From the NCBI GenBank assembly GCA_019096065.1, contig JAGUCH010000003.1, positions 1,178,001 through 1,242,000 on the forward strand: a DNA stretch of 64,000 nucleotides. Direction: 5' to 3'. This document shows, piece by piece, positions 11,046 through 54,886 of this stretch. The notes below the pieces were generated by a model that was given only the letters and a program-made list of their open reading frames with translations, was not told the DNA's origin and searched no databases. The number at the start of each line of letters is the position of its first letter. The first letter of the stretch is position 1. The DNA comes from Paracyclopina nana (Eukaryota; Arthropoda; Copepoda; Cyclopoida; Cyclopettidae). Made by a program: the position numbers and the translations under genes.

Positions 11046-11634
11046 GAGCAGTTGTGGGCAGGAAATGTAGTCCTGGACGAAATTTTGAGCTTGGTAGAGT
11101 GACGAATTTTTTAAAGCTCTGCTAGCGTATTCCAGGCGGTTTGTGGAACTGAGTTTTGAGATTTAAGAACGTTTCACCCTCATCAAAATCAGCAGCTCGG
11201 TGCTCAACGACTCATCCACAACCAGTTTGGACTTTGGAGGCTGCCGGTTCAGAAGTCAAAAAGACAAAAGCACAGCAGTGAACATTTGGCCCGATTAGCC
11301 CAAATGTTAAATTGCTATGGAATAAATAACTTTTTCGGTTAACTCGCGCTCGATTCATGGCTATTTAGACGATTTAAAAAAAATAACTCATATGGTTGAG
11401 CCTTGATTTCTTTGGAGCAAATTTCTGACCTTTACGATAGTTCTTTAAAAAGCTGACTCGGTTTTCACGATTAATAGTAGATCGCAGTTGAGCGCGCGCC
11501 ATCGAAAAAAGATGTATTGATCTTTAAAGGGATCTGTTTTCAGTAACGCTTCTCTAGGTGACTTCTTAGTTGTCAACACATTTCAGGCCATTTATTTCTC
11601 GTTAATATGCACAGTTGAAAAAGAAAGGGAAGCC
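11046..11634. other. Upstream region of ARMC5-like gene
   Basis: No gene seen. It must contain the promoter and 5' UTR of the gene starting at 11635. No convincing TATA box was found. Confidence 0.4.
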
Positions 11635-27480: not shown

Positions 27481-27538
27481 TTTCGCGAACAATTCAAACT
27501 TTGTTTACGTTTTATTAAATCGACGTCGACGCATCAAC

Positions 27539-28022
27539 TAGAGGTGTATCGGGCTCAGGCCCGAGCCCGAAAGCCCGATACCAATTTCTGGCCCGAGCTA
27601 AATAAGACCCCAGCCCGAGCCCGACTCGGGCCGATTTACAGAAAGCCCGAAAAAGCCCGAAGTCATTTTCAAAAAGCCCGAAGTGGCCCGAATGACATTT
27701 TTTAAAAATTCAAAACTTCAGAAAAACAATTGCTCCAGATTGTGAGCTTTAATATTGAGTTTGATTGTTAAGTATCCCTTCATTTGCATAACCTTCAGTA
27801 ATTGATGAGAATTTCATAACAATAAAGTGATTTTTATTCAGATTTTTCCTGAAAAATTGTAGATTTTGTCTCGGCCCGAAAAGCCCGTAACATTTTTTGA
27901 CTGGCCCGAAAAAGCCCAAAGCCTGAAAAAAAAGTTCAGGCCCGGCCCGACCCGACCCGAGTAATTTTTTGAAAGCCCGAGCCCGACCCGAGCCCGACAT
28001 TTCTTGGCCCGATACACCTCTA
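27539..28022. mobile_element. 484-bp hAT-type MITE with GCCCGA-rich arms
   Basis: Terminal inverted repeats TAGAGGTGTATCGGGC (16 bp) are flanked by a perfect 8-bp duplication GCATCAAC (27531-27538 and 28023-28030). This identifies a hAT-superfamily insertion. Subterminal arms are full of GCCCGA/GGCCCG hexamers in inverted orientation, and the core is AT-rich. No transposase frame. It lies 58 bp upstream of the p31comet start codon, so it probably sits in that gene's promoter or 5' UTR. Confidence 0.9.
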
Positions 28023-28639
28023 GCATCAACTCAGTGAAAAGGAAACGAGCCGATAATTTTTGCCCACTCTAACAAACTCAACATCTATACCAAATCGTCC
28101 ATTTAGCTTAATGAATAATATCTAAGCGCAAAGGAATATCATTTACTATTGCCCAAATCTATTTAACACGAATTCTATATTTTTCCATTTATTTTAACCA
28201 TAGCTTGAAATTAACGGAGGACCTTCAAAACTCAGCTCTAATAACTCAGTTATTTGACTTGATATTGCTGACCGCAGAATCAGTTAGTCAGCACTCAGAC
28301 TGCCGGTGTCCCGTTCATCAGTGGCTTGTGGGCTGCGAAAGGCTTACTCGAGTTCTCAGTGTTGAAGACAAAAATCGGGAGAAGGAGAACTTGGTAAGTT
28401 TTTTGAGATTTTTTCCCTATAACAGTAGAAAATCTATTGCTTTAGGTAGTAGCTGCTTTGAAAATAAACCGTTCAGAGGTCTGAGCTCGTCCGATCGAGA
28501 AAAAAACCGAACGGAGAAAATGGGCGATGTACCCTTGGTTATCATTGGAAATTGCTATTTGCATTCACTTTTAGCATAGCTATATCTACGTTTCTGTTCA
28601 TCCTAGCGATTTTACTCTTAAGTAATTTAAGTTCTATTT

Positions 28640-34934: not shown

Positions 34935-34941
34935 CTTTGCA

Positions 34942-35104
34942 AGGCCTGGAAACATTAATTGGTTTTCATCTGTAAAAATTATTTTTTTGTGCTCTGAAAC
35001 CAAAAGTTGGAAGTTGGTTGCTAGGCCTGGAAACATTAATTGGTTTTCATCTGTAAAAATTATTTTTTTTGTGCTCTGAAACCAAAAGTTGGAAGTTGGT
35101 TAGC
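34942..35104 (+). repeat. 81-bp perfect tandem duplication at the kekkon start
   Basis: Copies 34942-35022 and 35023-35104 differ by one T in a T-run and the last bases. They lie immediately upstream of the chosen start codon of the kekkon-like gene. Each copy carries an in-frame ATG on the minus strand (MFPGLA), so the 5' leader has duplicated upstream start codons. Confidence 0.85.
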
Positions 35105-37504
35105 AAGGATGATGGTTTTGTGACAAGTGAGGAAACTATGTGTCAAAGATGAAATGTGTGTGTGCTGTAATAAGTTTCCCTTGGTAAAGATGGAGCATCA
35201 AACTTTGTATTTACTGCCACAGTGCAAGAAATGCATTTCTTATTAGCTGCTGCTACACCAAAATTAGTAGGCGTGAAACCACTTACAAAATATCTGCACT
35301 CTCTTTTTCCTTAATTTCTGCAATATTCTGAGAATGATAGTTTCTAACAAAGTGATGAAAGATAATTGCCTTGATTCAATTTAAGACCTTTTGAGGGATC
35401 AAGAATGATTTTCAGCATGATGACAATCTGTTTGAAAGTGCGTCTTTTTGCCAAAAACTGTTGTATTTTCTTCCATCTATGCTACTTGGAACCTAATCAA
35501 TGCACAAATATTTCACCAGGAAGCTACACAGCCTTGAAGGCATGCAGCCCTTTGTGACAATAATGCAGTGAAAATGCAGACTCTCGCTAAAGGCTTTCTA
35601 GTTGGTTGGTGAGAAATTATTTGCATTCTAACTCTCAATTTGTTATCCCCTAAGCCAATTTTACAGCCTGGGTGCGTGTGGTGAAAATTCCAGCCAAATC
35701 GGACCATAAATGGCACTTTTATGCAAAGCACCATAAAAGCAATGCTTTTTTCTAGTTTCACCCATATAATTGCAGTTTCCTTCCATTAGATGTAATTGTT
35801 CAGCTCAATTTTGATGGTTTCATCTAAATGCAATTTATCTTACTTATTTCTTGTTGAGAAGCTTGTTTTAAGTGGTCATGTCCTGGCCAAAATGTCTGAA
35901 GGAAGCTCGCTAATTGCACGTAATTTGCCTTCACTCTGAGTGGAAAAAGGGCTCAAGAAATACTAAAGGGCTCCGGCTGTTTTTTGAGACGGAAGCTCGC
36001 AGCTTTCTATTTTATAACTAGGAGAAGTTGCGCCGTCAAAGCCCCGCGTTCACTATATGCTACATTACAACTTCTCTCATAAGCTATTTAACTGAGTGAC
36101 AACCCAGTAAACTTGTCATAAAAAGGCTAAGACAATTCCTTATGATGTCATAAGAGCAATTTATTCTTAATCAAGAGCAAAGTTTGAAATAGCCTTTATT
36201 TTTGAGGGTTTTTTCAACAATAACAGCTCGCTTTCTTTTACTGAGTGAGCTAATGATATCTGTTGAATATGGCAGTGCAAAGGAAGGAACAGATGCTCAG
36301 AAAGCTGCCAGTTCCATTCACAAAATTGAGTGTGAGGTGTTGAAAATTGCAGCAGAGCAGAAGAGAAGGAGGGGCGGATAATAATATCACATTGGGGGAT
36401 CACAAATCAATATTTTGGAATTCTGATACAACATTGAGATTCAGCAAAGAGAGTTCATCAAAAAAATCAGTGCCTACCTAGTCAGTTGATTTTTTTAAAA
36501 TATTATTACAATAAAAATTAGCTCACAGCTTTGAATGAATGGCTGTATGAATGTCCCTCTTTGTGACCTGTTTGTTGGCTTATTATTCAATTTAATGAAG
36601 TGTCAATGGCCGACATGAAATGACAAGCCCAACAAAGGCCATATAATTGCAGAATTTCTGATGAGATACGTATTTTGGGTCGACGTGAAAAAGCATCAAT
36701 TTTTCATGAATCCTCGACCCGGTTTGCAGTTAGATATCAGGATATATAAAGGGGGAGATATATCAGTGCAGTCTGTTACAAAGGATCCATGTGTCCCAAA
36801 ACAACACGAGCAGACTCTTCTTCTGCCTCTTGAATTTGCCCAGATTTGTGCTTTTACCTTTTACGCAGAAAATGGATCTCTTTTAAGCTCCATGTCACGA
36901 CAATTCTGCAGGCAGAAGGAAATAATGCATTTGACCCCAGAAAGGAAAGGCAATAAAGCTTGCAGCAAGCATTGGAAAATTGAAAGATCTCCTCTCTCCA
37001 CATTGGCCCTTTTTGTATTTTGCTTGCTTGCCCTCGCCCAGGAAATTGCTTAAATTGCAGAGAATTTTTCTCCTGTAGTAAAAGCTCTATGGTAGAAGAG
37101 GATGCAGCAAGCCACCAACATTCTTACAAAGTTGGTGCCATCAAATTGCAATTGATTTTTCAGAGGCTTTTCAATCCTTTTAAGGAAATTCCTAAGAATG
37201 TACCTAGATTTGGCGGCTTTATGCTATTATTTTAGATGGCGCCACTGCATGCACAGAAGATAGGGTCAGAGTTACGCGAACTGGCTTCTTTTAGCCGTTT
37301 GCACTTTTGGCATTTTTGGCTAGCAAATGGCTTATATGATTGCATGCCTTCCCATTCTCCGCTTAAAGTCCCTTAAGCGAATCACTTTCCTTTTTTGCTA
37401 TGAGTTCTGTGCAAAAAAAGGACTAAGGGCACTTTTTTTGGGCGAAAAATATTGCCAAGTAAAATAGCATGCAAAAGTGTTGACGTGACATTCAGAGCTA
37501 GTGC

Positions 37505-37635: not shown

Positions 37636-39510
37636 CTAACAGACGAACTAGGCTAGTTCTAGCTAGAGTAGTCCACTTTTTTTACTTGAAATACTTACCA
37701 GAATTCCATGTACAATTCTGTGGCAAAAAAGACATGTCCAAAACAACAATAAAGAGATCACTATTGGCAGCTTGGCGGAAACAAATTGCCCCTTGCGCTT
37801 TGAAGCTGTATGACATTTTTGCTGCTACAAAAAGTGTACTAGAGTTTTTCTTACTTTTGCTTGCCCATTGTCCTGTTCATGTACTTCCTAAACTCCTCAA
37901 GAAAATGCACGAAAAACAAATGAAGGAAAAGCGAAAAACTGACTCGCTAGCGGATACAAAAAAAATCAGATCGACTCTAAGCCAACTTAAAAAAATCTAA
38001 TTTTGGCAATTTATGGGCCACATCTTAAAAATTTCCAGCAAAATTAATAGTAAGATTTTCATTTTTCACCAAAGAAACGCGAAGGAGGCTACTTTTTCAT
38101 GAGGAAATGTTGAAAATCATGAAACTAAATAGCAAAAATTGCCATTAATAACGCTGCTCGGTCCCCAGCTGAACTCGTAGAGTGGCAGTGAGCAGCAGAT
38201 TCACTTTTCCTTAAGGCAATTTTCCTTAACCTCAAGGCATTCTTAATACATGAACAAGGCATTGATGTTATGTTGTATCGAATTCATTCATTCCCCTTTT
38301 AGAGTCGCATCGTCGTCCTCTTTGCCATCAGAGCCCAGATTAAGCTTAAATTCCTTTGAAGTCCCCAGAATACAGAGCCTTTCTTGTTACCAGCCACGCC
38401 TAATGATTTGACAAAGTTTGCTGCTCTCAAGACTCTGCAGTTAAAGCTCATTTTCATCACATACTATGTACATAGTAGTAGTTCAATGCTTGCCAAAATA
38501 CACTGCTACACTTGACTGTGCTAATTTAAGGGAAAATGAGCTGAGCTTCAGTATTTTTTAGCAAATTGAAAAAAACCTGGGCTACAAAGAAGTCAAAGCT
38601 TTCAAAAAGTTGGCTGTTTTGATCTTTGAGTGGATGCAAATGTGGTGGGAGTACAAATTCATCAAGAGACTTACATTTTTTTCTGCATAATTTATCAAGT
38701 TTGTCTGGCAAGGAAGACTTTGCAGGGGTTAACCACTGCACTGAGAATCCAACAAGCTTCTAGCAAATTCCTTTTGACATCTTTTTTATTCACTGTCAAA
38801 AGTGTAAATAAATCAATTTTTTACTCTCTGATGGGTAAATAAGGCTTTTTCCCTTATTGTACCACCCCAGAAGCTTTCATATTTCAAGCAGATTTTTTCA
38901 AAGAGAGGATTTTGTGGACCAGCAACATAAATCACAGCTATCTGAATGCAGATCTCCTCTGGGCCAGAAAGACCCAGCTTCTACCCATTGTAGTTGAAAA
39001 AGTGGATTTGGGTTGGACGTTACGCACCTGGGTTAATATAAAAGAGACCTAATAAAAAAAGCAGCCATGATAATTTATTGGTTGGCTCAAATCATGCAGA
39101 CAAACTGCCAACTTCCGGGATAAAATCACTCTTTACAATTTTCAAAAAACAAATTGTACCTCTTAAAGATACAAACGAAAACAAAAAATGGCAGTAGCCA
39201 AAAGTCAAGAAAATGGACGACTCTTTTTCATGATTTGTTGGCTGCTCAGCATCACTCTGTCATTTTCTTGGCAAAGCCTTAAAGACAAATAGGGTCCAAA
39301 AAAAGATCAGTTTAGCTGCATTTTTCCATGTTTTTGCTTCACTATACATTGCAATGGAGTGTTGAAGCAAGCGTTAAAGAGCTGATTTGGATAAAGTGAG
39401 AGCAAAGTTTTCATAAAGTTCAACTTTAGTAGTACTGTGCTGCAGGATTCCAGTATTGCAGCAGTGGGACTTTGCTCCTGGTTATTGTTATTATAACTGC
39501 CACACATCTA

Positions 39511-39524
39511 CCCAACCAGACAAA
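39511..39524 (+). repeat. Left terminal inverted repeat
   Basis: CCCAACCAGACAAA, exactly complementary to 54871-54884. With the outer TA included the match is 16 bp. Sequence further inward does not match the other end. Confidence 0.85.
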
Positions 39525-39996
39525 ATAAAAAATAGTACTGATTTAGTACTTAATTAATACTGGGTTCGAATTTAGTCGTATATGGCATTACTACCGAAAA
39601 ACGTGTAACGCTTTGAATAAACATATGATTTGGCGACTACTGATTTTTTAAAATTAATGCTACGATTTTAAAATTATAAAAAATGCAAAGCCTGCATCCC
39701 ATTGATGCCATATCAATCAAAAAATTCATTAAATTATGCTTAGTTTCTGAGTTATTAATTTTTAAAAATCTTTCTACGATAACTAAACCTGTCTTTTATC
39801 CCTTTAGTATATATTTTACTCTTCAAAAATACACCTTTTTTAAAAAAAATTAAAAAAAAAATCAATCTAGTATTATCTCGGTATTTTTAATGAAAAATTC
39901 TAATTTCATATACTACATGCTTAAAAATTATGCAGTAGTCATGAAGAATACTTGCCGTTAAAAACAGGGTATTTATTTCAAAATTTTAATTTATGT
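39525..39996. other. Left subterminal region of the transposon
   Basis: About 470 bp of very AT-rich DNA. Close to the tip is the repeated phrase agtactgatttagtacttaa, with TAGTACT-type units also present elsewhere in the element. It may hold transposase binding sites; no gene. Confidence 0.4.
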
Positions 39997-40853
39997 ACGC
40001 ATAGAATACACCTCTGAAATGCGTTGCATATGGATTATACCCACCGTTACGTTTATGCCATATGGACTGAATTATCAAACTCCAATTTGTACGCATTTGA
40101 TACATGTCGCTTTTCGGTCAACTACACCGTCATCTACGCATAGAATACACCTCTGAAATGCGTTGCATATGGATTATACCCACCGTTACGTTTATGCCAT
40201 ATGGACTGAATTATCAAACTCCAATTTGTACGCATTTGATACATGTCGCTTTTCGGTCAACTACACCGTCATCTACGCATAGAATACACCTCTGAAATGC
40301 GTTGCATATGGATTATTCCCACCGTTACGATTATGCCATATGGACTGAATTATCAAACTCCAATTTGGACGCATTTGATACATGTCGCTTTTCGGTCAAC
40401 TACACCGTCATCTACGCATAGAATACACCTCTGAAATGCGTTGCATATGGATTATACCCACCGTTACGTTTATGCCTTATGGACTAAATTATCAAACTCC
40501 AATTTGTACGCATTTGATACATGTCGCTTTTCGGTCAACTACACCGTCATCTACGCATAGAATACACCTCTGAAATGCGTTGCATATGGATTATTCCCAC
40601 CGTTACGTTTATGCCATATGGACTGAATTATCAAACTCCAATTTGGACGCATTTGATACATGTCGCTTTTCGGTCAACTACACCGTCATCTACGCATAGA
40701 ATACACCTCTGAAATGCGTTGCATATGGATTATTCCCACCGTTACATTTATGCCATATGGACTGAATTATCAAACTCCAATTTGGACGCATTTGATACAT
40801 GTCGCTTTTCGGTCAACTACACCGTCATCTACGCATAGAATACACCTCTGAAA
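39997..40853 (+). repeat. 139-bp tandem array, six units plus a 22-bp partial
   Basis: Units start at 39997, 40136, 40275, 40414, 40553 and 40692, with a partial unit from 40831. Units are nearly identical, differing at a handful of sites (for example ttattccc for ttataccc). The 63-aa open frames seen in each unit are by-products of the array: the 139-bp period shifts frame and no start context is shared with a gene. Confidence 0.95.
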
Positions 40854-40979
40854 TTTGTTTTTATAGCAGGAAATGCTTTTTTTTTATTAGTAAATAAATC
40901 AGAAATATTAGTATTAACACAGTATGGAAAAAAAATAATACTGAGAACATACAGTTGATGAGTTGTTTGAACCTTATGT

Positions 40980-43952
40980 TCAATTTTCTTCATAAACTTC
41001 GACTTCAATTTGGTGCTCCTGAACATCTTCATCTGATGAGGAGTTATCGGCCTGGAAAAAATAATTGTATCAAATAATTATTATGTCAAACTATGTTTCG
41101 TTACATTCTTAGTAGATGCCTTCGACTCCCTCACTTTCTGACTTGTAGAGGTGACACTTTTAGTCAGCGATGAGCAATTGATTGGCGTAGATACATCCAG
41201 AGTCTCTTTTTGGCATTGTTGTGAAAAGTAATTTGAAATTTTTAATTGAGACGAAGTTGACGCTGACTGCAATCCACATTTTTGAGATCTTGCTGAATCA
41301 CGACCACGATTGTTCTCTTCTTTGCCATCACTACGTTCCTCTCTTTTCTCAAACAAAGCTCTCTTCTTCGTTTTCTCCTTGGATGACTGTGGTTTTACAA
41401 AATCGTCATCCGAATCAGAATTGTCCTTGGCAGGTGTCATAAGACTTCGTATTGCGTCTTGACTACGCCACTCCCTTATTTGCTCTGTCAAGTCATCACA
41501 CTTTGCCAGCTCTTCCAAATACTTCTGCTTTGGCTAAGGATGAATCATAAGTGAATTACAAGTTTCATCAAAACGTATAATACTTAATATATACCTTTAA
41601 AGTTCCGACAATCTGAGAGAAACTGACCGATTCCGGATTCTTATCAAGGGCTAGACATATTGCAGCAATGACTTTCGTAGCATCCCCTAAAGTTTCAATT
41701 TGAACTCCCGCGCCTCTTCGAGAGTTATCCAGATAGTCTTCATCAGTTTCCATGCACTCTTGATCATTGTCGGTAGTAGAATCAGCGGCAAATTTCCTCT
41801 TCAATGCATTAATGTTCTTACTGTTTTCGCAAAATTGCTCAAAAGTAATAGCTGCTACATAATTCGCGTGCTATAAGGTAAACAAATGAATTATTATCAA
41901 TTTAATTTATTAAATGGTGAAAACCTACCCGATTGTTCTGCCAATACCAATACGCCTCATCAAATAGTGCCTTCAATGCAGCTTTAGCCGTTGGAGCCCT
42001 TTTGCAGACATCGTCAATTAGCCTTTGCCTGTCGCCACTTAGTGCATCGCCCATTCGAATTTTGACATCTTGCACAGAGGTTTTCTTAACGGCTCCAACA
42101 TCAATTTTCCTCCTAAGCAAGTATGATGTCGCAACTTCCTCAGCAAATTTGACAGCTCCAATTGGATATCCACGCTTGAACCACATTTTGTTAAGCATTC
42201 CCCTAAATAAGACAATATTATTGAATGTGAAAGTTTGTAGCAATAACTATTCAAACTACGTTGACTTCTCTCCTAGAATCATATGGGCTCGTGCATTGTT
42301 GGTGAACAAAATTCGGTTGAGCACACCAGCCATCTTCCTTTTCATGTCTGCGTAATCAATTTTGTCAACACGAGTAATGATTGCAGACTGAAGCAATTGC
42401 AAGACAACGTCACAGGCAAAGAAATAGTCATAGCCTATGCAAACTCGATCAGCAGGAAGGTGTCTCAAGACAATTTGTCTTGCGACGGATTCTCTGTCGG
42501 CAGGCATAGACCTAATCAAGGACATTTGCTCCTTCATTTCGGATGTTTGTTCAAGAATCGCCTTATTGGTCATTAGAATCTCCTTTTGATCATCATTCTT
42601 GCGCTTTAAAAAAAAAAGTAGTTACTAAGAAAAAACACGATAAAGTATAAAACTAATACCGGTTTCATTGAGGCAGTCGCTTTAATCCATTTAGATGAAC
42701 TAATGGACAAGTCGTTGATTTTTGAGCACAGCTGCTTGATTTCGTCTGTCTCAGATCCTAAATTCTTAGCGACAGAATCAATGCTTTCGATGAGTTCAGT
42801 TTTGGCATCATCGATCCGCTTGAAAATACTTTGTTCGAGTTTTGGCAGTAATTCTCGAACAATTTGAGTTACGAGCTGATCAAGTGGGCCATCCAATGAT
42901 GACAGTCGAGTTGAGGGTTGCGTGTCGTCAGTTACCTCATTACGAGATGAGATTGATCGTTCAATAAAAGTCTTTGAACTTCTCTTTGCTGGAAGGACAT
43001 CACTCATCTCAGATCCATCGTCAGAAAGATCAGAATGTTCAAATGCATTCTGAGATGAGCTTGGCCTTTTACGTTTGTTGGCAATCTTGCTGTTGCTCTT
43101 GACGATCAACTTCTGAGAGTAGCTTCCTTCATCTGGATCCTCAATATCCGGAATTTCCTAATATTAGCAACAATAATTATATTTAGTCATTTCAATCGAA
43201 AAATTCAAATAATTACCAATGGTAGTTTGTTCGATTTCGTTACGGCATCACTGTCAGAGGTGATAGGGCATTTCACAGGCTTGCTTCTTAAATTGTGCGA
43301 GCTCCAATTATGATAAATATGTTCGCCAGTTTTGATGTCAATTGCCGGGAACGTATAATCCATCATAAGTTTTTCTGGGTAGGTCGCGACCATTTGAGCA
43401 TACATTCTTTGTATTGGCCCAATGCCTCTGCATTTTCGGAAGTGACTGTTTTGAAAAACTAGTAAGTTATTCAAGCGACCCTCAGTGACCTCTGAAAGAA
43501 TTTAAACATTATTAAAACAATTCAAAAAATATTCTGACTAAATACTTACTGTCTTCTATTCGGAAATAAACATAGGTAGGAGTCAACTCAATGCCATTGT
43601 GGACAAAGCATGGCTTCAAGCGCATAGAAGTCTTCAAACATTTGAATGGTTTGAATCCGAATATCTCCTCTAGCGTTTTATTAGTGACTTGGCAGACATC
43701 ACTTACATTCCGAACAAAGAGCTTGTCTTTCTTGAGCTTTGGATCAAAAAGACAGATGCGATCGTAATTACCACCAGTTTTTGGAATATCAACAGATTTC
43801 TTTCGATCTAAACCAGTACAATCCTCTGAGACATGGACCTCGGCACCAGCAGCATATTGCAGGTCTTCCCCAATAATGTCATCATCTTGAGCAGGCGTCA
43901 AAATTGGCAATTCATCAGAATTTTCGGTTCGCTTAATTCTCTTCATTGACAT
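40980..43952 (-). CDS. Cargo gene A: novel-family protein, 8 exons, 856 aa
   Basis: Exons 43952-43550, 43491-43217, 43157-42660, 42603-42260, 42202-41929, 41870-41595, 41533-41105 and 41051-40980; all joins are GT-AG and in frame. Not recognised. The N-terminal part has a conserved block shared with genes B and C (CQVTNKTLEEIFGF, FRIED, MVATYPEKLMMDYTFP). A Ser- and Lys-rich linker with coiled-coil character follows, then an alpha-helical block (RQIVLRHLPADRVCIGYDYFFACDVV; LFTNNARAHMILG; MWFKRGYPIGAVKFAEEV; DALSGDRQRLIDDVCKRAP) and an acidic/basic disordered tail. The tail suggests a nuclear protein. A 20-bp duplicated phrase (44021-44060) lies upstream. Proposed role: accessory or cargo protein of the transposon. 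Confidence 0.8.
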
Positions 43953-44295
43953 TGTAATGGCGTGAACACGTGGAACGAATACGAGATTCTATGTTAGCTG
44001 AAGTTGAGACAATTGTGCTGAGCATGTATAGTAATTAATGAGCATGTATAGTAATTAATGAGCATGAAAGACGATGATTAATTATCACGTGTAATCATAA
44101 AAATAAGATTTTTTAAAAAAAAATTGAACAATGTGATAATCAGTATTAAAAATGAAGTTAATTCAAAAAATACTTATCTAATACTTATAAAATACTGTCT
44201 AAATTGAATTTTTTAACAAAAAAAAAATATGATAAGAAAACATTTATTCTTTAGACATATCAGTACAAATATGGAATGTACGACAAAACGATGAA
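43953..44295. promoter_or_regulatory. Upstream region of cargo gene A
   Basis: Between the stop of gene B and the start of gene A. Holds an exact 20-bp direct duplication (44021-44040, 44041-44060, agcatgtatagtaattaatg). Otherwise AT-rich with no gene. Confidence 0.45.
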
Positions 44296-45574
44296 TTATT
44301 CGTCATCCGAGATGGGTGGAATGTCATCGTTGTTGACGGATTGTCCGAAACGAGATTCCACAACATTGACACGACCAATCATTCGCAATTGCTCGACAAC
44401 ATCACTAATGCTAGTAACAGCGTTAAGAATGGCAGTCAACATTGTCATCGTTGACTGTTGGTTGTCACCTTCGTCCTAAATTAGTATAAACTGTTTCAGA
44501 AGCATTGCTAAACCTAATATTGATGTGATTTACCGTTTGGATGGATTCAGCAATCCCCTTGAGCGTTTTGACATCTTCTGACAATTGTTGAAACGAATCC
44601 GATTGCGATTGCATTGCGTCAAGCATATCAATCTTGATAATACTGACATCGCTTGCTAGAGACTTGACAGAGTCTTGAATTGAGGCTAATAGTTCACGCT
44701 GCTCTCGACTTTGACTTGTAATTGCCTCGACAATCCGTGGCATCAACTTCGAGGCAATACCATCAACGAGTTGACTGACTGACGATTGATCCTGTCCCTG
44801 AGCGTCATCAGCGGCTAGGAGTGGTTGACGAGAATTTTCTTTGGGACTACTGTCAACAAGTTTAGGTTGATCAGTTTGCTCATCATGCTGGAATAAAGTA
44901 AGATGTATTAACTGCAAATTACGTGAAAATAATATATATATAGTGTATCATACTTCATCTTCGGAGCACAGGTCCACGACAATCGGTGTTTTACGGACCA
45001 AAGAGAAGAAGTGGAAGTTGAACACCTTGGTATTTGGATCCATCGGTGGGTAGGTATAATACGCCATTAGTTTCTCAGAATAGTGCTGAACCATTTTTTC
45101 GTAGAGAGCTCCTCGGACAGTAGCAGAGACGCAACGAAACATGTGCCGGTTCAAGAAATGAACAATTGTCGCCAAACGATCATTGGAGACAGCTAAACAG
45201 AATGATATTAGAATACTTTAAATGAAATTTAATATAAAATATCCATTACCGTCTTCTACCCTCACGAAAATGTTGAACATCTCTTGCTTCTTTCGATGGA
45301 TCACCATGCACGGAGTCTTACGCAGCTCTTCAGACAGTTCTTGACGGATATCGGCTTGGAATATATCATTCAAAGTTCGATCGGAATACTGGCAGTAGTA
45401 ATCCACGGACTCGACGAAGAAAGAGTCATACTTCTTGACACGGTTAAACAGAATGAACCGGTTAAAGATTCCAATATCGGGGCGATGGACGATTTCACTC
45501 TTGGGGAGATGAGCTGATTCTTCGGATAATGGAATTGGCACTCCCAAAATTTCGCAGATTCTTTTCTTCGACAT
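44296..45574 (-). CDS. Cargo gene B: short paralogue, 4 exons, 365 aa
   Basis: Exons 45574-45250, 45192-44954, 44887-44534 and 44475-44296 close in frame. It shares the N-terminal block with A and C (CQYSDRTLNDIF, FVRVED, MVQHYSEKLMAYYTYP). Exon 2 is 239 bp, the same length and phase as exon 2 of gene C. A coiled-coil-like exon 3 and a short acidic fourth exon follow (ending DDIPPISDDE). The helical C-terminal half present in A and C is missing, yet the gene ends with a proper splice and stop, so it may be a working short form. It could compete with or regulate the long paralogues; this is inference. Confidence 0.75.
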
Positions 45575-46527
45575 CGTTAAAGGCGATATTAGCGGCACGG
45601 AAACACTTCACACGTGGATATTTATTTATCATGAAAATTGCTGAGACAAAAATTGAGAAAGAGCGCGATTTCTTGGCGGCTAGGGCTAAGCTAGGCTGAA
45701 CGCAGTTCAGTTATTGTACTGGCACGGCAGTTGCCACGTTGAAATCCCGCTTATCGCAACTACAATAACAATAAATAACACGCAACCTATCATCGAGCGA
45801 TTTTTAATACTTAGAACAATAACGATGGATTTAAAGTATTAATCAAGTAGCATATTGACGTAGCAATGACTAATTTAATGTTTTCGTGTATGCAGATGCA
45901 TCATCTCAACTTTGCGTTTGTTCATAATAAATTATGTAGTCGTTAAGATAACGCTACATACTAATAAGCGCTAATTACAATGTATTTAATCACAATTATT
46001 ATATTTTTGAACAAGTAATGATGATAATAACTGATATTCAGAAGTGCATGGCTTAAATTCGCGATTGCGCGCGCTAGTAATAATAATGTGCATGATGTCA
46101 GTAGCGATGCTGCTGAAGCATCTCGATAAAGTTAGCAACAATCATTTTATGTTTATTTAAGGTGTGTTAAATACGGATTAGGAAACATTAGCTTTAAAAA
46201 TAGTTTTTTCCAACGGAATTTTTTAAAAACAATGTCAGAAAAAGATAAACGGTATTTTATTAGAACTTTATTAGAAAAATTCTAAGAAAATACCAATGTA
46301 ATACTAACCATAATTACTAATGTTTCTTTTTTTTTTATTCAACGCTCGAGCAATTGATATATGAAATGAAATAAGATGAGGCATAATTACCAGTTAAGTA
46401 TTCTCTATTCTCTATTCTTTACGACACATGCTTATTAGTATTACGTTATATCACAGATAAATTTTGATTGTGCAAGAGTGCACTAAGAATTCTGGTCCGA
46501 AATAATGTACAAATGATTCGTTCATGC
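45575..46527. other. Between cargo genes B and C
   Basis: About 950 bp containing the gene B upstream region and the gene C 3' flank. AT-rich, with nothing recognisable. Minus-strand poly(A)-type signals are possible near 46340 (tttattc on the plus strand). Confidence 0.4.
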
Positions 46528-49376
46528 TTAAAACTCTTCGGCTTCTGATGAGCTGTCGTTCGTCGGTTGAGGATTGGCTGAACGAGTAGTCCTTCTTGGC
46601 ACGTCGCGTGAGGTGGAGGCTTCTCCCTTTTTCTTTGCCTCAGCAAGTTTGGCGAGGCCTTCAGCAATTGCCTTCTTTTTGGAAGACAAGTCTTGCAGCT
46701 TCTTGGCTTCCAGCAACGCTTTTTTCTCCGCCGCAGCCGATACCTTCCGTAGACGTTTAGCAATTGGAGGAGTCTTTTCCTCCACCGACTTCCGTTTAGA
46801 GCTGGACTGACTTGATCGTCGCCGGACAGTAGGCGAGTCATCCTCTGATTCGTCGTCATCAGACTCCACGATTTGACGTGTAGCAAGATTGCATTCGTTC
46901 TGAATGCTCTGTAGCACGTCGGCGATGTCCAATCCATCAATTACTGATGCGTAGGCACGATAAGGCTGTAAGAAAAAAGTATTGCATTAGAATTTTATTG
47001 AATACTTTTCTAATATCTGTTACCTCTTTGATGCCGTCAATCTCGTCAAATTTGACGTCTTTAGGGTCACGTCCCAATGCTTGGCAAACTGCAGCGATAA
47101 TCTTGCTGGCCTCCTCGATGCTTCCTATTGGCGCACCAGCGTTACCCCTCGAGTTCTTGAGAATTTCGGCCCTTGGCACTACGCTGTCAATTGGATCGCT
47201 ATTGAATTTAGCCTCTAGATCATCAGAGTGGCCGTAGGACTCCTTGAACTGGTCAAGAGTCATACTCGGGTCGGCATTAATGTGCTGAAATTAATAAATG
47301 ATATCACTCTTTTACTTAAATCAAACATCGACAATTACCTGATTGTTGCTCCAAAAGATCATCGCCTCATCGTAGAGGACCTCCACAGCAGTGTCCCAAT
47401 CAGGAGCAACGCGGCAAACATCCTTGATGAGACGTTGACGGGCACCGCTGAGTCCGTCGGCCACCTTCTTCTTGACCTGATCCACGGACAGACGCAGAAT
47501 TTGCTGCTCTGTTAGGTTGCGTCGGTGGTGGTTGTCGGATACAACCTCGGCGATGAACTTCACAGCGCCAGTTGGAAATTTGCGCTTGAACCAAACTTTT
47601 AGCGCATTACCACTGCAACAGGTATTAATTAAGTATTACCTTTGAATTAAATACATTAACAACTTTTACTTACGCTTGCTTCTGTCCAAAAATCAAGTGT
47701 GCGAGGGCGTTTGTAGTAAACATGAAGCTTACTATTTTGCCAGGCATTTTCGAGTTGAGGACCTCGAATTTGATGTTGTCGACAATAGTGATGATGGCTC
47801 CAAGCATCACCTCACGAATGATGTCACAACCAAAGAACAAGTCGTGTCCGATTGTGATGTGGTCAACAGGTAGGTATCTGGCCACCATCCTCCTCGCCAA
47901 GGAGACCCGCTCAACCTTCGAGTATTTAATGTCCTTTAAGGCATCATCGATCTTAGCGACCTTTTCAAGGATTGCCTTGCAGGTTAGGGCAACCTCTTGC
48001 TGATCGGACATTTTCTTCTGCAATGTAATTCAATCAGTATTTCATTAGAATTTAATATGTAAATTTCTTACCGTAATGGCATCTTTGGTTGTGATCGTCA
48101 TTTGATTGATGCCAGTACACAGATCGGACATTCGGACAATTCCTTGACTCATTTCGTCCGTTCGCGTTGACATCACGTTCTCGTTGTATTGCTTCAACGC
48201 CTTGACATCTTCATTGATCGAGTCCAATACAGTGATGATGGCTTGATCACGTTCAAGCAGAGTCTCGCTAAGCCTCGGGAAGATCTTATCAGCAATCGCT
48301 GATGAAATTTCGTCAATCTCTTCCTTCGTGAGCTTCGAGCGAGCTACAAAATCCGGTGGGTTGAAAGTCAAGGATGGCCTCCGCTCAAGTACTGGCTCAT
48401 CCTCCAATGGTTCGTCATGAACCTCATCCTCGATCGGCAATACCTCTGCTGGCTGTTCCTCTTCAGCCAGCTCCTGAACGACGGCTGATGCTGGTTTGGT
48501 CGGCAACTTAACCTTTAACGGACTTTTCGCTTTTCCACTCGACCTGGTGGACCTTTTCGTTGGACTCGGCTTGTCCGATGGTGGATCCGATTGATCGTCC
48601 TAATTAAGTTGTTTGTTTTAATTCAAAATTTCTCTAGAATAACAATAGAAACATACCGATGTCATTGTATCAAAGACTGTCGTCAAAATCTGTTCGCTGC
48701 CGAGTGCTCCACTCCAGCGATGGAAGTAAAACTCCCCGTCCTCTCGACGACTCGGAAAAGTGAAGTTCGCCATTAACTTCTCGTTATAGCTCGCCACCAT
48801 AGTCTTATAGACATCCATACGCTCATTCTCGACGAGACCATTGAAGTGACTGTTGAAAAAGTCGAGCAATGTCGCGATCCTCGACTTTGGGACTCCTGTA
48901 TGAATTTAATAAGTATTTTTCATGGTATTATGTGATGTAATATACTTACGATCCTCGATCCGGCAGAAAACGAATGCCTTACGAACAATTCGTGGCGCAA
49001 TGTTCATCAACCCTTCCTTCAAGCGATGTTTTTCACTCAGCTTGCCCTTCGGTTCGTAACCAAAAATCTGCTTGAATGACTTGTTCGTGTATCCGCAAAC
49101 GAGGTTGACTGGGTAGACGAAGACGGGCTGGTTCTCCTCAGGCAAGACGACGAAGATCCGATCATAGACCGAGTTCCTCGAATCCCGATTGATGGCCTCC
49201 TCGATTGGCAATCGGGTCCAATCCTCGGAATCCGGAATGCTGACTCCGATATTCATTGGGAACATTTGTTCTTCCTCGCGTTCCGGACTTCCAGTCGGTG
49301 TTGGTGGTGGCAAACCGAACGATTCTCGGTATTTTTTCCGTTTTTCGTAGAGGACTTGTTTCGGCGTCTTCTTCAT
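46528..49376 (-). CDS. Cargo gene C: novel-family protein, 7 exons, 836 aa
   Basis: Exons 49376-48950, 48895-48657, 48599-48072, 48017-47674, 47612-47339, 47284-47024 and 46965-46528 close in frame. Paralogue of A along its whole length: CGYTNKSFKQIFGYEP, FCRIEDR, MVASYNEKLMANFTFP, then RRMVARYLPVDHITIGHDLFFGCDII, FTTNALAHLIFGQ, VWFKRKFPTGAVKFIAEVV and DGLSGARQRLIKDVCRVAP. Exons 4 and 5 are 344 and 274 bp in both A and C, with the same phases. The C-terminus is Lys/Ser-rich with nuclear-localisation-like clusters (KRKSVEEKTPPIAKRLRK). Coding DNA is visibly richer in G+C than A, B and the transposase gene. Function unknown. Confidence 0.82.
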
Positions 49377-49875
49377 GGCCGCTTTTGTTTTTAAGACGGA
49401 ATTTAACCGCTCAGTTTTACTCGTTGGCGGGCTCGTTGGCGTCTGCTTCCTAGCTGTGTGGGTGGATGTGGGTGTGCACCGGAAAAAGTACCGTCACGTT
49501 CTTTTTGCCGCTCACCTGTTAGCTTAGAACGCTGGCGCGCAAAAATACCGGAAATGACGTGGAACTTCAATTTGACGAGATTTCTCTGTTTCTGTTGAGC
49601 ACTGTAAATATTTATATTTTTGTTTGCAAACTCATGCGATGTTTCGTATTTATGGCATTTTTGTCAATCAGAATTAATTTTTTTTATTCATTCATGTCAT
49701 ACTCAATTTTAATTCTTAATTATTTCTAATGGCTAAAAATTATTGTATTTTCTCAACAACATATTGGAATTATTTACAGTGATAATTAGTTACGTACTTA
49801 AACAAATTATTTGATCCGATTAGATTACCGTTCAATGTAATTTCAGCTTATGATCCATTTTATTCCATAGTCGTC
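49377..49875. promoter_or_regulatory. Divergent upstream region, cargo gene C and transposase
   Basis: 499 bp between oppositely directed start codons. The half near gene C is G+C-rich and the half near the transposase is AT-rich. It presumably carries both promoters, allowing coordinated expression; no specific motif identified. Confidence 0.5.
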
Positions 49876-52559
49876 ATGTCAAAAAAAAATGTTTTGTCCC
49901 GCAAAGATCACATGCAGAATTATCGGCAACGGAAAAGATTGAAAATAATAGACGAACTACTGAAAGAGGACGATAACGATCAAGCTCAGATAAATGTTGG
50001 CTTACCTCGTAGTGCCGAACCAATCGAATATGATGAATCTCAACCAGTTGTTAGTGTGATAATTAATGATACACCTCATGATGATTGTCATTCAAAGCCT
50101 AAGTTAATGAAGCTGTCAGAAGTTCTCAAACGAAAAATACCAAAGGAATCGTCCACAGATTCGGAATTTATTGTAAGTTATACTTTAACTGTACGAGCAT
50201 TTACTGTAATTGAAAAAATTTTCTGACATAGCTACGAGAAGATGATCGATTTGTGCAAAGTAATCAGGATGCATTTGAAATTGAAAATTTTAACAATTCC
50301 AACGAGAATTTGTCACTTGTCTCCAGAAGCAGTCAATCAACTTATTTAGATGATGTTGTTAACAATTATTCAGATGCTGAAGTAGAATCAAGTACAGAAT
50401 CAGAGGTATTTAAAGAATTTGTTTATAGTACTTCTTACTTAATTATTATTCTAGGTATCGCATAGCACGCAAAATGTGAATTATGGTGTATCTGATGCAT
50501 ATTACGCATCAAACAAGAAGTACATGTTTTTAGATACCAGCAAGCATTCACTAAAAGATAACCTTTCATTGAGCAAGTTCCTTGATGCATTTAGTCATGC
50601 AGCAAGTCTCGAAGATTCTAATGCCCGAGAATACATAGCGGATATGTTTGTAATGACATATACTGAGCTAATGATGTCTGAAAGTTCAGCATGCGCTATG
50701 TGGAATTTGTTGTGTGCCGCAATACATTACAAGTACCCAAATATGAAATCCTTTAAAACCATAAAAAGAAAATTTAATGCAAACGTTCCGCAACCAAAAA
50801 TGGACTATCAATTACAGGACAAAGAAAATGGTGCATTGTTTGAAATCAAAAATCAGCAGTCATATCCTCGAAAAAAGTTTCCTGAGAGAAAATTTGAGCT
50901 ATTATCTGAGTGGACAAAATTATCTGTTCATGATGCATACCTTTTCCACTCACAAAATCATGGATTGAAGTTTGATCCACTTGCGAAACTAAATGTTAAC
51001 TATGACATCTCGTTTGATGGTGTTCCTGTTACTGAGTCTGGACTTGACAAGGCTACTGTTCTATGTGTCAGATTTGAGGGATGCAAGATGATTTATGAGA
51101 TTGGAATTCATAAATACAGGTATTATATCGGTAGTAATATAGAATTATACTTTATTTTATAATGATATAGGACTAACTCTACAGTTGACTTTAATTGTCT
51201 CTTGAAAGATGTACTATCCGATGCTTTATCAAAAGGATTCATATGTAAGAAGGCAATTGCTGATGCTCCATGCAGGGCTTCTGGGAAATGTTTTAAAGGT
51301 CATGGTGGCTACTGTTCATGTGAACGTTGTTATGCTGTTGGTGTCAGTCTTGGTCCTGGATGTATTGCCTATCCACCTAGCAGCAAAAAGTATCACAAAC
51401 GTACTCACGCTGGCTGGTTACGAATTGTTGAAAAAATTCAAAATGCCAAAAAGGATCTCACTGATTATTCTAAATTTGGCATACATGGCTCCTCTCCATT
51501 TTTACTTCTTCCTCATTTTGATATTGTTAAAGATTTTCCAGTGGAGCCCATGCATAATTTGTTTCTTGGCCAAGCTAAAGGCCTTTTGAAACTTATGCTT
51601 GGCCTTTCTGGACGAACTAAAGCTTTTCCGCAACGTGTGAGGACAATTCTGAATCGGTATTAATTCATCAAAATTCTCATTTATGCGCATTTTCATTCAT
51701 TATTGTTAGGTTTGATGAAACGTGGCTGTCTGTACGTTTACCTTCTGAGTTTTCAAGAAAACCACGAGATCTTGCTAGATCATTTGTGCATTTGAAGTCA
51801 GAGGAATTTGTCACAATCACGTGTTGTGCTTTCTGGCACATGGCTAACTCATTCATCGATATTAAACTTAACAGCAGAACAATTTCTCAGAAGCAAGTCA
51901 GAAGACTGTTTAAATTTTTCGGATTTTTATGCAAGTCAGTGCTGTTAGATGACAATATGCTTGAATTTTGTCGAGAGAAATCATATTGTCCACTTGAAGA
52001 TCTTCTTGACAAATTTTACAACATGTGGTGCGATGAATTTGGTGAAAATAAGTGCTCATACAATTTGCATGCATTTAGTCATGTGTACGAAGTTCGAGAT
52101 GATCATCAATTTGATGATATATCTGCCGAAAGATTTGAAAATGAATATGGGTACATGAAGCGCTTCTTAAAAAATAACACTATGTCCTATGGAAAGCAAG
52201 TGATGGTGAAAGCCAACATACTTACAATGAGAAATCACTACTGCTCAAGAGTTATTCGTGTCACTAACCGAAAAGGCCGCAAGGATTCTAATGACAGTAT
52301 TATTTTAGCAAACGATTTAATATTTTATGAGGTTATTGAAGACGATGGACCATTATTTCGATGTCATCAAGTTAAAACGGAGAAACTTATTGATCCGGAG
52401 ACTCCTGAACTCAACTACGATGCCATTTTTGTAAGAAAATTTATCAAGATTGTGAAAAGAGAATCGTTTTTTGACATTGATAAGTCGAGTGTTATATCTA
52501 AAGCTTGCATTGTCAATGATGTTATTTATGCTGTGTCATTTTCATCACTTTTTGTTTGA
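49876..52559 (+). CDS. Tnp2/CACTA (EnSpm)-like transposase, 5 exons, 823 aa
   Basis: Exons 49876-50172, 50232-50405, 50455-51119, 51171-51656 and 51710-52559 close in frame. The central and C-terminal parts follow the Transposase_21/Tnp2 pattern: first acidic site in NYDISFDGVPVTESG; then IADAPCRASGKCFKGHGGY with paired cysteines (CSCERCYAVG); HGSSPFLLLPHFDIVKDFPVEPMHNLFLGQAKGLLKLMLG; and YNLHAFSHVYEVRDD...FENEYGYMKRFLKN with the expected last Glu. The N-terminal 160 residues are acidic and basic low-complexity with a KRLK-type nuclear signal. Where family members usually have Asp before the MH of the second site, this protein has Glu (VEPMH), which is unusual. Catalyses cut-and-paste transposition if active. 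Family assignment is from motifs only. Confidence 0.8.
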
Positions 52560-52661
52560 ATTTTTCCGCTAAAATGCTCAGTTAATACATTCTCATCAAT
52601 TGTCGTAATGTTTTCATCAGCTGTTTCTGGAACAATTCATTGAACTCATTCTGATTGAATT

Positions 52662-53066
52662 ATGGCTTCTACAAAGAAAGTGAGATCCACTAATTTCTTT
52701 AATCAGAAGAAGCTTATTGATAAGCTTAATGCTTTGGCTGGCAATCCATCGTCAAGAATAGGTTATGATCAACTATTTCGATCTCAAGGAACTGCTGGAC
52801 AATCAAAAAAGAACATTAATGAATTACTCGAATCTGTTGCTGTTAAAACAGTAGACGATGATACCAAAAATAATTTTGAAGCTGACATTGAAGATACACC
52901 TGTCTTTGATTATGATACCTATTCTAACTTTGAAGGCGACTATTATCCTTGGCGCAAAGGAAAAATCTTTAAGTCAGACATGGATTTGGAGAAACTAAAG
53001 ATTGCTTTAATGCAAAAAAAAAAAAATCCAATAGAATATGTGTCTGATATTGATGATGATAAATAA
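52662..53066 (+). CDS. Small acidic/basic transposon protein D, 134 aa
   Basis: Single exon, start MASTKKVRSTNFFNQKK, in the same direction as the transposase and 102 bp after its stop. The N-terminus is basic; the middle and C-terminus are acidic and Asp/Tyr-rich (DYDTYSNFEGDYYPW, ending YVSDIDDDK). Not recognised. Its position suggests a transposase partner, as TnpA-type DNA-binding helpers accompany Tnp2-type transposases in plant CACTA elements; that comparison is inference. Confidence 0.55.
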   Translation: MASTKKVRSTNFFNQKKLIDKLNALAGNPSSRIGYDQLFRSQGTAGQSKKNINELLESVAVKTVDDDTKNNFEADIEDTPVFDYDTYSNFEGDYYPWRKGKIFKSDMDLEKLKIALMQKKKNPIEYVSDIDDDK

Positions 53067-53081
53067 AATTGCTTATTTTAA

Positions 53082-53434
53082 ATGTCCCACTCTAAACTGG
53101 CCAAACTAGTATTTCTTCAATCGCACATTTCCATCAACTTTTACAAATCACTTTGTCTTATACTTTCGAATATACAACAACTTAGAATGACGAACGATCA
53201 AAGCAAGATTGTTGAGCTCATCATAGAAAATAAGAAAATCAAGCGATTGCAGCGTAAAGCAAATAAAACGCTGAAGTAAGTTAGTTTGATTTTTTATACA
53301 TGAATATATAACTAATTACACATCTTAGGATGGCGATAATTCAATGTGAACAAACAGAATCAGCGATTGCAACTGTTAAAGAAGCAATTGCCTTTTATGA
53401 AAATGAGTTTGAAAAAATGAAAAATTTGAAATGA
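53082..53434 (+). CDS. Small coiled-coil transposon protein E, 2 exons
   Basis: Exons 53082-53275 and 53329-53434 join in frame (99 aa). The part from ATG 53187 (MTNDQSKIVELIIENKKIKRLQRK, 64 aa in total) reads as a charged coiled coil and follows a good acceptor (cttag at 53181-53185). The real start may therefore be there, after a spliced leader joined to gene D's transcript. Only 15 bp separate the D stop from the upstream ATG. Not recognised. Confidence 0.45.
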
Positions 53435-53480
53435 AATGACATATGACATATTAGTCTTTGAAATATAGCTGCATTACAGT

Positions 53481-54387
53481 CAAAAATACCGACTGTGGAA
53501 TTGAATTTACTAGGCATTCCGGACCAATAAAATACAGTTATTTTGCGATGCGCTTTTCAATGCGCTACAAAATTGGAGCCCAGTCCTAACTGGCAATCGT
53601 AGCGATTCAGCATACCTTCCTTATGCGGAGTCATCTAATTGAAATGGCAGCAAAAATACCGACTGTGGAATTGGATTTACTAGGCATTCCGGACCAATAA
53701 AATACAGTTATTTTGCGATGCGCTTTTCAATGCGCTACAAAATTGGAGCCCAGTCCTAACTGGCAATCGTAGCGATTCAGCATACCTTCCTTATGGGGTG
53801 CCCTCTAAGTGAAATGGCAGCAAAAATACCGACTGTGGAATTGGATTTACTAGGCATTCCGGACCAATAAAATACAGTTATTTTGCGATGCGCTTTTCAA
53901 TGCGCTACAAAATTGGAGCCCAGTCCTAACTGGCAATCGTAGCGATTCAGCATACCTTCCTTATGCGGAGTCATCTAATTGAAATGGCAGCAAAAATACC
54001 GACTGTGGAATTGGATTTACTAGGCATTCCGGACCAATAAAATACAGTTATTTTGCGATGCGCTTTTCAATGCGCTACAAAATTGGAGCCCAGTCCTAAC
54101 TGGCAATCGTAGCGATTCAGCATACCTTCCTTATGCGGAGTCATCTAATTGAAATGGCAGCAAAAATACCGACTGTGGAATTGGATTTACTAGGCATTCC
54201 GGACCAATAAAATACAGTTATTTTGCGATGCGCTTTTCAATGCGCTACAAAGTTGGAGCCCAGTCCTAACTGGCAATCGTAGCGATTCAGCATACCTTCC
54301 TTATGCGGAGTCATCTAATTGAAATGGCAGCAAAAATACCGACTGAGGAATTGGATTTACTAGGCATTCCGGACCAATAAAATACAG
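53481..54387 (+). repeat. 170-bp tandem array, five units plus a 57-bp partial
   Basis: Units start at 53481, 53651, 53821, 53991 and 54161, with a partial unit from 54331. Copies are almost identical; the second ends ggggtgccctctaagt where the others have gcggagtcatctaatt. Each unit contains AATAAA, so it may supply poly(A) sites for the rightward genes. It shares no sequence with the 139-bp array. Confidence 0.95.
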
Positions 54388-54870
54388 ACAAGTTAATAAG
54401 TTAAGAAGAAACAATTAGTACTAAGAAATAAATCTATATTATATCAAATAAAGACTTATTTCAATAAAAGAATTTTATTGAGTCAGGAAAAAAAAAATAG
54501 TGAAAAAAATAAATAAGGTGTACAAGTCCATTTAAAGTCAAAATTACTTATTAAATACTAAAAAAATACTAACTTAAAAAATCTTTAATTTAAAAAAAAA
54601 AAATGATTTTCAACCTCATTCATACTTAGCTGTTATCTAGGAATACATTAAAAAAAAAAAAAATAAAATCTAAGGAAATTCATATAATGGTCAAAATTGA
54701 GTCAAACGACAATTTTTGAAAATTCATATCTCGAATGATATTGATTATATCGATTTCTAAATATGATATTACAGTATCAAATACATCGAGGAATATGATT
54801 TTACTATAAAAATTTATAAAATCTTAAAACAATTTTTGAAATGGATAAACGACCGAATAAATACGGACCG
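54388..54870. other. Right subterminal region of the transposon
   Basis: About 480 bp of very AT-rich DNA with short TACTTATTAAATACT-like phrases similar in flavour to those at the left tip. No gene. Confidence 0.4.
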
Positions 54871-54884
54871 TTTGTCTGGTTGGG
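54871..54884 (-). repeat. Right terminal inverted repeat
   Basis: TTTGTCTGGTTGGG, exact complement of 39511-39524, followed by TA. Confidence 0.85.
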
Positions 54885-54886
54885 TA

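Follow-up and report, generated by a model that had tools for sequence, protein, structure and literature searches.

The animal DNA transposons closest to the element described here are the TRC elements, known from Schistosoma (SmTRC1), Aedes, Tribolium and Hydra, whose ends begin with CCC and leave 2-bp duplications (PMC1636069, PMC4298943). In SmTRC1, the 2-bp duplication was found in 7 of the 14 copies analysed, and a tandem-repeat region lies near one end, while an Aedes TRC element measures 9.2 kb (PMC1636069, PMC4298943). The CACTA elements of plants reach sizes such as 8.3 kb for En/Spm and 20.5 kb for the soybean element Tgmt*, and they combine a conserved DDE transposase, which works at the terminal inverted repeats (TIRs), with a divergent partner protein that binds repeated motifs inside the ends (PMC2613891). 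In the Arabidopsis element VANDAL21, the protein VANC21 targets the short word YAGTATTAY, which is found in introns, intergenic regions and terminal non-coding DNA (PMC5735166, PMC10398659). Here we describe an element of 15.4 kb at positions 39511-54884 of a 64-kb stretch of DNA from the copepod Paracyclopina nana (contig JAGUCH010000003.1; the entire stretch is referred to as the window), which has a satellite near either end and two divergent arms with six open genes in total: three paralogues (A, B and C) leftward, and a putative transposase with two small genes rightward.

We consider this stretch to be one complete cut-and-paste DNA transposon, related to the animal CACTA/EnSpm elements and TRC-like in type, in which A, B and C are DNA-binding partners of the transposase, and we put the probability of this reading as a whole at roughly one half. 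The part of it that concerns a single CACTA/EnSpm-related unit is well supported, because the anatomy, the TRC-like ends, the TA on both sides and the transposase signature all point to it; the unity claimed by the first-pass annotation is supported in this respect, and that the element moves is an inference. Novel features are an old and apparently selected triplication of the paralogues, words of the form A[AG]TAC[TC] phased at 11 bp, and, as a suggestive addition, a motif in mirror orientation in the two satellites. As an apparently complete, large animal CACTA-like transposon, the element is useful for dissecting how transposons keep partner genes.

Ends and Subterminal Satellites

The first-pass annotation had proposed exact 14-bp inverted repeats bordered by TA and lying 15.4 kb apart, with satellites inside each tip; all of these were recovered, the former by direct reading and exact matching, the latter by a tandem-repeat search:

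39509..39510, unstranded: left TA, putative target-site duplication, part of a 16-bp inverted repeat
39511..39524, + strand: left TIR, CCCAACCAGACAAA, compared with published TRC ends
39996..40854, unstranded: left subterminal satellite, 139 bp x 6.2, 98% matches
53481..54387, unstranded: right subterminal satellite, 170 bp x 5.3, 98% matches
54871..54884, - strand: right TIR, exact match to the left TIR
54885..54886, unstranded: right TA, putative target-site duplication, part of the same 16-bp inverted repeat

The TIR is exact over 14 bp, and even when two mismatches are allowed the window contains no occurrence beyond these two; at least two matches at this tolerance were also obtained in 18 of 100 shuffles. 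Together with the outer TA, it forms a perfect 16-bp inverted repeat whose arms are 15,346 bases apart. Since the window contains 11 perfect inverted repeats of at least 16 bp (mean of 0.98 in 60 dinucleotide shuffles), such a repeat is weak evidence when taken alone, and the TIR match was rejected as proof by itself. The alternative that the inverted repeat arose by chance and happens to enclose a host gene cluster or a domesticated transposase locus would be in keeping with the expectation of about one perfect 16-bp inverted repeat per window of this composition. We nevertheless judge this explanation to be very unlikely, given that the repeat, which opens with CCC and has TA on the outer side of each arm, is similar to TRC ends in the literature and lies just outside the two satellites (an inverted repeat of at least 16 bp within 1 kb outside each satellite arose in 9 of 2000 local shuffles).

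The first 10 bases of the TIR, which opens with CCCAA, agree at 7 of 10 positions with the end of the Hydra element Spongebob/EnSpm-4N1_HM (CCCAGCCAACATTGAC) and at 6 of 10 each with an Aedes and a Tribolium TRC end, one published Aedes end being CCCAGTCAAC (PMC4298943, PMC1636069). This independent likeness is the strongest argument for the boundaries being real, which it supports without amounting to proof; the ends are credible because they resemble published animal TRC ends and lie just outside the satellites. A loose class of such words (CCCA[AG][CT]CA[AG]) occurs eight times on the two strands of the window, the two TIRs included, and is preceded by TA in three of the eight cases. The TA on both sides of this single copy is compatible with a 2-bp target-site duplication, as read from this copy alone; the CACTA ends and 3-bp duplications of the plant-type elements are not seen, the ends being CCCAA and the flanks TA.

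No other copy or remnant of the element was detected in the flanks within the window (best E = 0.31 for the proteins and 0.026 for the tip DNA), and the joined flanks found no match elsewhere in the window beyond weak self-similarity. An animal CACTA-like element with this gene content was not found in the open-access literature, a search that had Repbase outside its scope and is no proof of absence.

The satellites start 485 bp (left) and 497 bp (right) inside the tips, and their units have the motif CTCCAA-TTTGTA-CGCATT in common, in inverted (mirror) orientation. The score of the inverted-orientation likeness was reached in 2 of 1000 shuffles, and that of the best forward match in 391 of 1000. 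We treat the mirror-image motif common to the two satellites as suggestive.

Gene Content and the Putative Transposase

All six genes were reported as open after hand splicing in the first-pass annotation, and our models, also spliced by hand at sites of our own choosing, agree with this. Their 21 introns are all of the GT..AG type and 49-66 bp long; by eye, the introns of nearby host genes also measure about 50-60 bp. The models, together with a short array from the tandem-repeat search, are:

40980..43952, - strand: paralogue C, 8 exons, 856 amino acids (aa), open
44019..44066, unstranded: 20-bp tandem array upstream of paralogue C
44296..45574, - strand: paralogue B, short form, 4 exons, 365 aa
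46528..49376, - strand: paralogue A, 7 exons, 836 aa, open
49876..52559, + strand: transposase, 5 exons, 823 aa
52662..53066, + strand: small gene 1, 1 exon, 134 aa
53187..53434, + strand: small gene 2, 2 exons, 64 aa

The signal AATAAA or ATTAAA is present within 300 bases after the stop codons of A, B, C and both small genes, with that of small gene 1 lying inside small gene 2, and is absent from the 300 bases after the stop codon of the transposase.

By inspection, the transposase contains the residues D345, D410, C429-C432 (CERC), H661-H665 (HAFSH) and E684. Their order, D-D-C(2)C-H(3)H-E, read here by eye, is the one described for the CMC/CMCT clade (PMC12730594). The TRC proteins have a box A of the form [LVI]-D-x-[LM]-H-x3-L-G (PMC1636069, PMC4298943); the corresponding segment here, VEPMHNLFLG, departs from it by one conservative difference, D to E. 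Searches of the PDB sequences with the transposase and with a profile of A, B and C gave a best E of 1.6.

The Leftward Paralogues

The intron phases of A (1,0,0,2,0,0) recur in C, which has one more intron, and those of B are 1,0,0; B corresponds to the first three exons of A and C, followed by a short last exon. The shared introns fall into the same alignment columns, with one exception: the position of the second intron in A is shifted by 6 columns relative to B and C, within a poorly aligned stretch. A and C are about 32% identical in a BLAST alignment and 45% identical over the region of exons 4-5. By codon position, the identity between these two is 49% (first), 57% (second) and 31% (third); across all pairs, the first positions are 41-49% and the second 51-57% identical, and the third only 31% (A-C), 33% (A-B) and 30% (B-C). 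Among the identical residues of fourfold type in A and C, 37 of 140 share the third base. Because third codon positions agree at only 30-33%, well below the first and second, this is, as judged from the sequences, a family that was duplicated long ago with its introns and has been kept by long purifying selection.

No clear family could be assigned to these proteins. A likeness to BEN and DUF4806 domains was considered and rejected, since neither was found in Pfam up to E = 10 with the pieces of A and C that cover exons 4-5. Residues 488-550 of A match a PHROG of unknown function at E = 2e-4, in one of the three paralogues only, and beyond this weak match nothing was recognised. A PIP-box-like stretch in C, QLKISNYF, lies within the range of chance for the set (one occurrence against an expected 0.19).

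The base composition varies between the six genes. The GC content at third codon positions (GC3) is 0.57 in A, 0.47 in B, 0.40 in C, 0.31 in the transposase, 0.25 in small gene 1 and 0.35 in small gene 2, compared with 0.52-0.72 in five host open reading frames (ORFs). The CpG observed/expected ratios are 1.11, 1.14, 0.84, 0.74, 0.57 and 1.40 in the same order, and 0.13-0.71 in the host ORFs. As a separate observation, ratios above 1.1 in A, B and small gene 2 may point to a recent arrival or to a mutational history that differs.

These properties bear on the possibility that the transposon is a genuine TRC/EnSpm-like element in which A, B and C are true passengers, derived from a host family that was captured and duplicated and that takes no part in transposition or anti-silencing. 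The host-like GC3 of A, so different from that of the transposase, and the failure of Pfam to reveal a known DNA-binding domain would suit such an origin, but we regard it as unlikely. The three genes keep their introns in the same phases and their divergence is old, and for these reasons they were not captured recently or separately; furthermore, the CpG ratios of A and B are unlike those of the five host ORFs. The distribution of the word described below adds to this. The term cargo, used for the leftward genes in the first-pass annotation, is therefore probably the wrong word: the paralogues are old and apparently selected, and phased short repeats stand in the non-coding DNA of the element. 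These features fit element-encoded DNA-binding partners of a TNPA-like or VANC-like kind better than passengers.

An 11-bp-Phased Word in the Non-Coding DNA

The non-coding DNA of the element outside the satellites (4356 bases, GC 0.27) contains AATACT or its complement AGTATT 25 times (5.7/kb); 17 of these copies belong to the spacers and tips, and the other 8 are spread over 7 of the 21 introns. The same word is found 6 times in the 9252 bases of element coding sequence (0.65/kb), never in the satellites, and 29 times in the 48,626 bases of the flanks (0.60/kb), which are mixed coding and non-coding DNA and richer in GC; in about 17 kb of host DNA, made up of four stretches with few long ORFs, it was counted 9 times. 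For the non-coding element DNA, 5.9 copies of AATACT are expected under an order-1 Markov model, and the observed maximum z was reached in none of 300 simulations. Among longer words, the result for the 8-mer AATACTTA was reached in 4 of 300 (order 1) and 8 of 300 (order 2) simulations.

The spacing of the word is stronger evidence than its enrichment. When the class is written as A[AG]TAC[TC], there are 41 sites, and of the 12 same-strand pairs within 40 bases of each other, 8 are exactly 11 bp apart and 2 more are at 22. The 11-bp pairs occupy six places, all from a motif spacing scan:

39534..39561, + strand: three A[AG]TACT sites at exact 11-bp spacing, from 9 bp inside the left TIR
39869..39885, - strand: phased pair, 11-bp spacing, left subterminal DNA
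44169..44196, + strand: three phased sites, 11-bp spacing, between B and C
46289..46305, + strand: phased pair between A and B
47621..47637, - strand: phased pair in intron 4 of paralogue A
54554..54570, + strand: phased pair, 11-bp spacing, inside the right tip

This pairing was matched, at any spacing, in 0 of 400 simulations at each of the Markov orders 1, 2 and 3 (0/1200), and none of the 74 sites of the same class in the flanks forms a pair at 11 bp. With strict AATACT, three pairs at 11 bp remain, a number reached in 1 of 5000 random placements. A lag test that presets no motif gave 31 repeated 5-mers at lag 11, and at most 15 at other lags when the 20-bp array is set aside; the count of 31 was reached in 0 of 200 simulations at each of two orders, the simulation maximum being 24, and by our sorting the word accounts for about 19 of the 31. 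In five host stretches, the counts at lag 11 range from 4 to 19; one of these stretches, which contains a known 31-bp array, reaches 27 at lag 31. The orientation is constant within a cluster and varies between clusters (four +, two -). Identity across the eight pairs of neighbouring units amounts to 92% for the motif and 40% for the 5-bp spacer; the spacing is thus kept while the spacer drifts. Such a word, stepped at 11 bp, suggests that the element encodes proteins that read its own DNA.

A different origin of the signal has to be weighed here, namely a decayed minisatellite, or a helically phased A/T pattern favouring open chromatin, in place of an array of binding sites. The periodic A/T clusters of nematode germline genes, which favour open chromatin, would be the model for the latter; the AT-richness of the non-coding element DNA speaks for this origin, and tandem slippage readily yields fixed spacings, as the host 31-bp array illustrates. 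In our view this is a serious yet doubtful explanation, since the repeated unit is a specific word that contains C and occurs at six separate places with unlike spacers, not in one array.

The motif is unevenly distributed: from 48918 to 53107, a segment with 886 non-coding bases in which the introns of the transposase are counted, the non-coding DNA has no AATACT and a single AGTACT. That the motif is found on the side of A, B and C and in both tips, and is nearly lacking around the transposase, also argues against the paralogues being passengers. The same gap, from 48.9 to 53.1 kb, could instead indicate two or more elements, nested or side by side, with a small transposase element and an unrelated element carrying A, B and C, the outer TIRs belonging to one of them only; the drop in GC3 from A to the transposase and small gene 1 would fit this as well. 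We find this arrangement quite improbable. No internal TIR pair stood out among 25 of the 26 inverted repeats listed, whose flanks were not tested singly, and the satellites share the mirror motif under one of two scorings. Furthermore, the A/B/C side is tied to both ends of the element, because the motif occurs on this side and in both outer tips.

A Working Model and the Results That Weigh Against It

In the mechanism that we envision for a single transposon with its own DNA-binding partners, the rightward arm would provide a DDE transposase of the CMC clade, which would cleave at the TIRs and generate a 2-bp duplication, a step suggested by the anatomy. The leftward arm would provide, with less certainty than the transposase step, three anciently diverged DNA-binding partners; A and C would be the long forms, and the short B might modulate them by pairing via the first part that all three share. 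The partners may recognise the 11-bp-phased A[AG]TAC[TC] clusters that lie in the two tips, in an intron and between the genes, and perhaps also the mirror-image motif of the satellites. Recognition might serve to join the two ends before cleavage, the role that TNPA has in plant CACTA elements, or to protect the element from silencing by the host, the role of VANC in VANDAL elements, or both. In its most specific form, i.e., an animal transposon whose own DNA-binding family reads a helically phased AATACT array, counters silencing and pairs the ends, as an independent counterpart of plant VANC/TNPA, this model is tentative, and we think it possible rather than probable. If A, B and C do bind the phased motif, the element would be an animal transposon with a self-recognition code over its length, and it would allow a test of whether element-encoded anti-silencing exists outside plants.

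A number of results weigh against the interpretation that we prefer. Transposase_21 motif I, which is stated for most, though not all, TRC elements and consists of DG, F/Y and W-P, is degenerate in the transposase: DG is kept at 345-346, and F/Y and W-P are absent (PMC1636069, PMC4298943). The two aspartates are 64 residues apart, compared with the published 80. Transposase_21 itself (PF02992) was not found, as Pfam gave no match up to E = 5 with the whole protein and up to E = 10 with the core. Because of these features, we describe the enzyme as TRC-like and stop short of counting it among the proven members of the group; the Tnp2-type motifs named in the first-pass annotation are only partly supported. 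Pfam found no family reaching the cut-off for any of the six element proteins, leaving Transposase_21 and DNA-binding domains unrecognised in searches in which the HMMER filters drop most weak matches. The models of the paralogue domains are poor (predicted local distance difference test, pLDDT, of 47.5 and 42.1), and DNA binding is for this reason without structural support. A third TRC-like end preceded by TA, CCCAGTCAAC, lies inside the coding sequence of A at 49113, so that such words do arise by chance. The likeness of the satellites vanishes under softer scoring (194/1000 inverted, 313/1000 forward). As to the word, an order-2 model already expects 8.4 copies of AATACT, and the top z, which then belongs to another 6-mer, was reached in 26 of 300 simulations; the top 7-mer was reached in 27 of 300 (order 1) and 106 of 300 (order 2); the host stretch 6000-11400, with its known 9-bp arrays, has a stronger 6-mer enrichment; and the class was widened to A[AG]TAC[TC] after the clusters had been seen. 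Finally, no relative was found in pattern-based scans of viral contigs and prokaryote genomes, or by tblastn of phages, which are the wrong collections for an animal element and from which the small genes were left out.

Neighbouring Host DNA

Among the neighbouring host genes are an ARMC5-like gene, a translation GTPase read as eIF5B, an Alg9-type mannosyltransferase and an ecdysteroid kinase-like gene, a set in keeping with an invertebrate host, perhaps an arthropod or a relative. An Ig-containing host ORF at 33196-34212 has a CpG observed/expected ratio of 0.13, compared with 0.58-0.71 in the other four, and an 81-bp unit repeated 2.1 times at 34937-35108, open in frame, lies just upstream of the likely start of a gene read as LRR/Ig type (Ig match). 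A perfect 16-bp inverted repeat at 27538-28023, its arms 470 bp apart, surrounds a 31-bp tandem array with GRAGP-like peptide words. At 10195-10802 there is a long, near-perfect hairpin with arms of 103 nt (93%) and inner arms of 168 nt (82%), possibly a fold-back element, which is adjoined by 9-bp repeats at 10043-10190 and 10802-11040; a 37-nt inverted repeat at 7368-7591, 95% complementary with 150 nt between its arms, has the look of a small miniature inverted-repeat transposable element. Rfam detected no RNA family in the window at gathering scores.

Comparison with Described Transposon Systems

With the TRC elements (SmTRC1 of Schistosoma, those of Aedes and Tribolium, Spongebob/EnSpm-4N1_HM of Hydra), the element shares CCC ends, a putative 2-bp duplication and multi-exon transcripts, as well as the D, D, C(2)C and box-A-like motifs of the transposase (PMC1636069, PMC4298943). 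It differs from them in its length of 15.4 kb, in its three paralogous genes and two small genes on divergent arms, in having satellites at both ends together with an 11-bp-phased motif, and in the missing Pfam Transposase_21 match. The fungal EnSpm-like ESTA elements resemble it in the C(2)C and H(3-4)H signature and in the putative TA duplication, the two features compared; they carry TET/JBP genes (PMC12730594).

The plant CACTA elements with a TNPA-type partner are likewise large, have a transposase and a partner protein, the latter with little similarity between families, and carry short motif repeats near both ends (PMC2613891). In the plant elements, whose ends are CACTA with 3-bp duplications, the partner stems from alternative splicing of one unit (PMC2613891), unlike the three separate genes on the opposite strand found here. 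As to the comparison with VANC21, exact YAGTATTAY words number six in the element, two of them in coding sequence, and two in the flanks, so that the likeness of letters may be due to chance.

The arrangement described for VANDAL21, a Mutator-like element, is found here: a short word is arrayed in one orientation per cluster in introns, intergenic regions and terminal DNA. As with the targets of VANC21, a word of similar letters (AATACT/AGTATT) occupies the introns, intergenic regions and terminal non-coding DNA (PMC5735166). VANDAL21 is a plant element whose protein is of the DUF1985/DUF287 type (PMC5735166, PMC10398659), and no relation in sequence was found here, DUF1985 being absent from the Pfam matches of A, B and C. 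Since the proteins are not recognisably related to VANC, the likeness between the copepod element and VANDAL21 is one of design.

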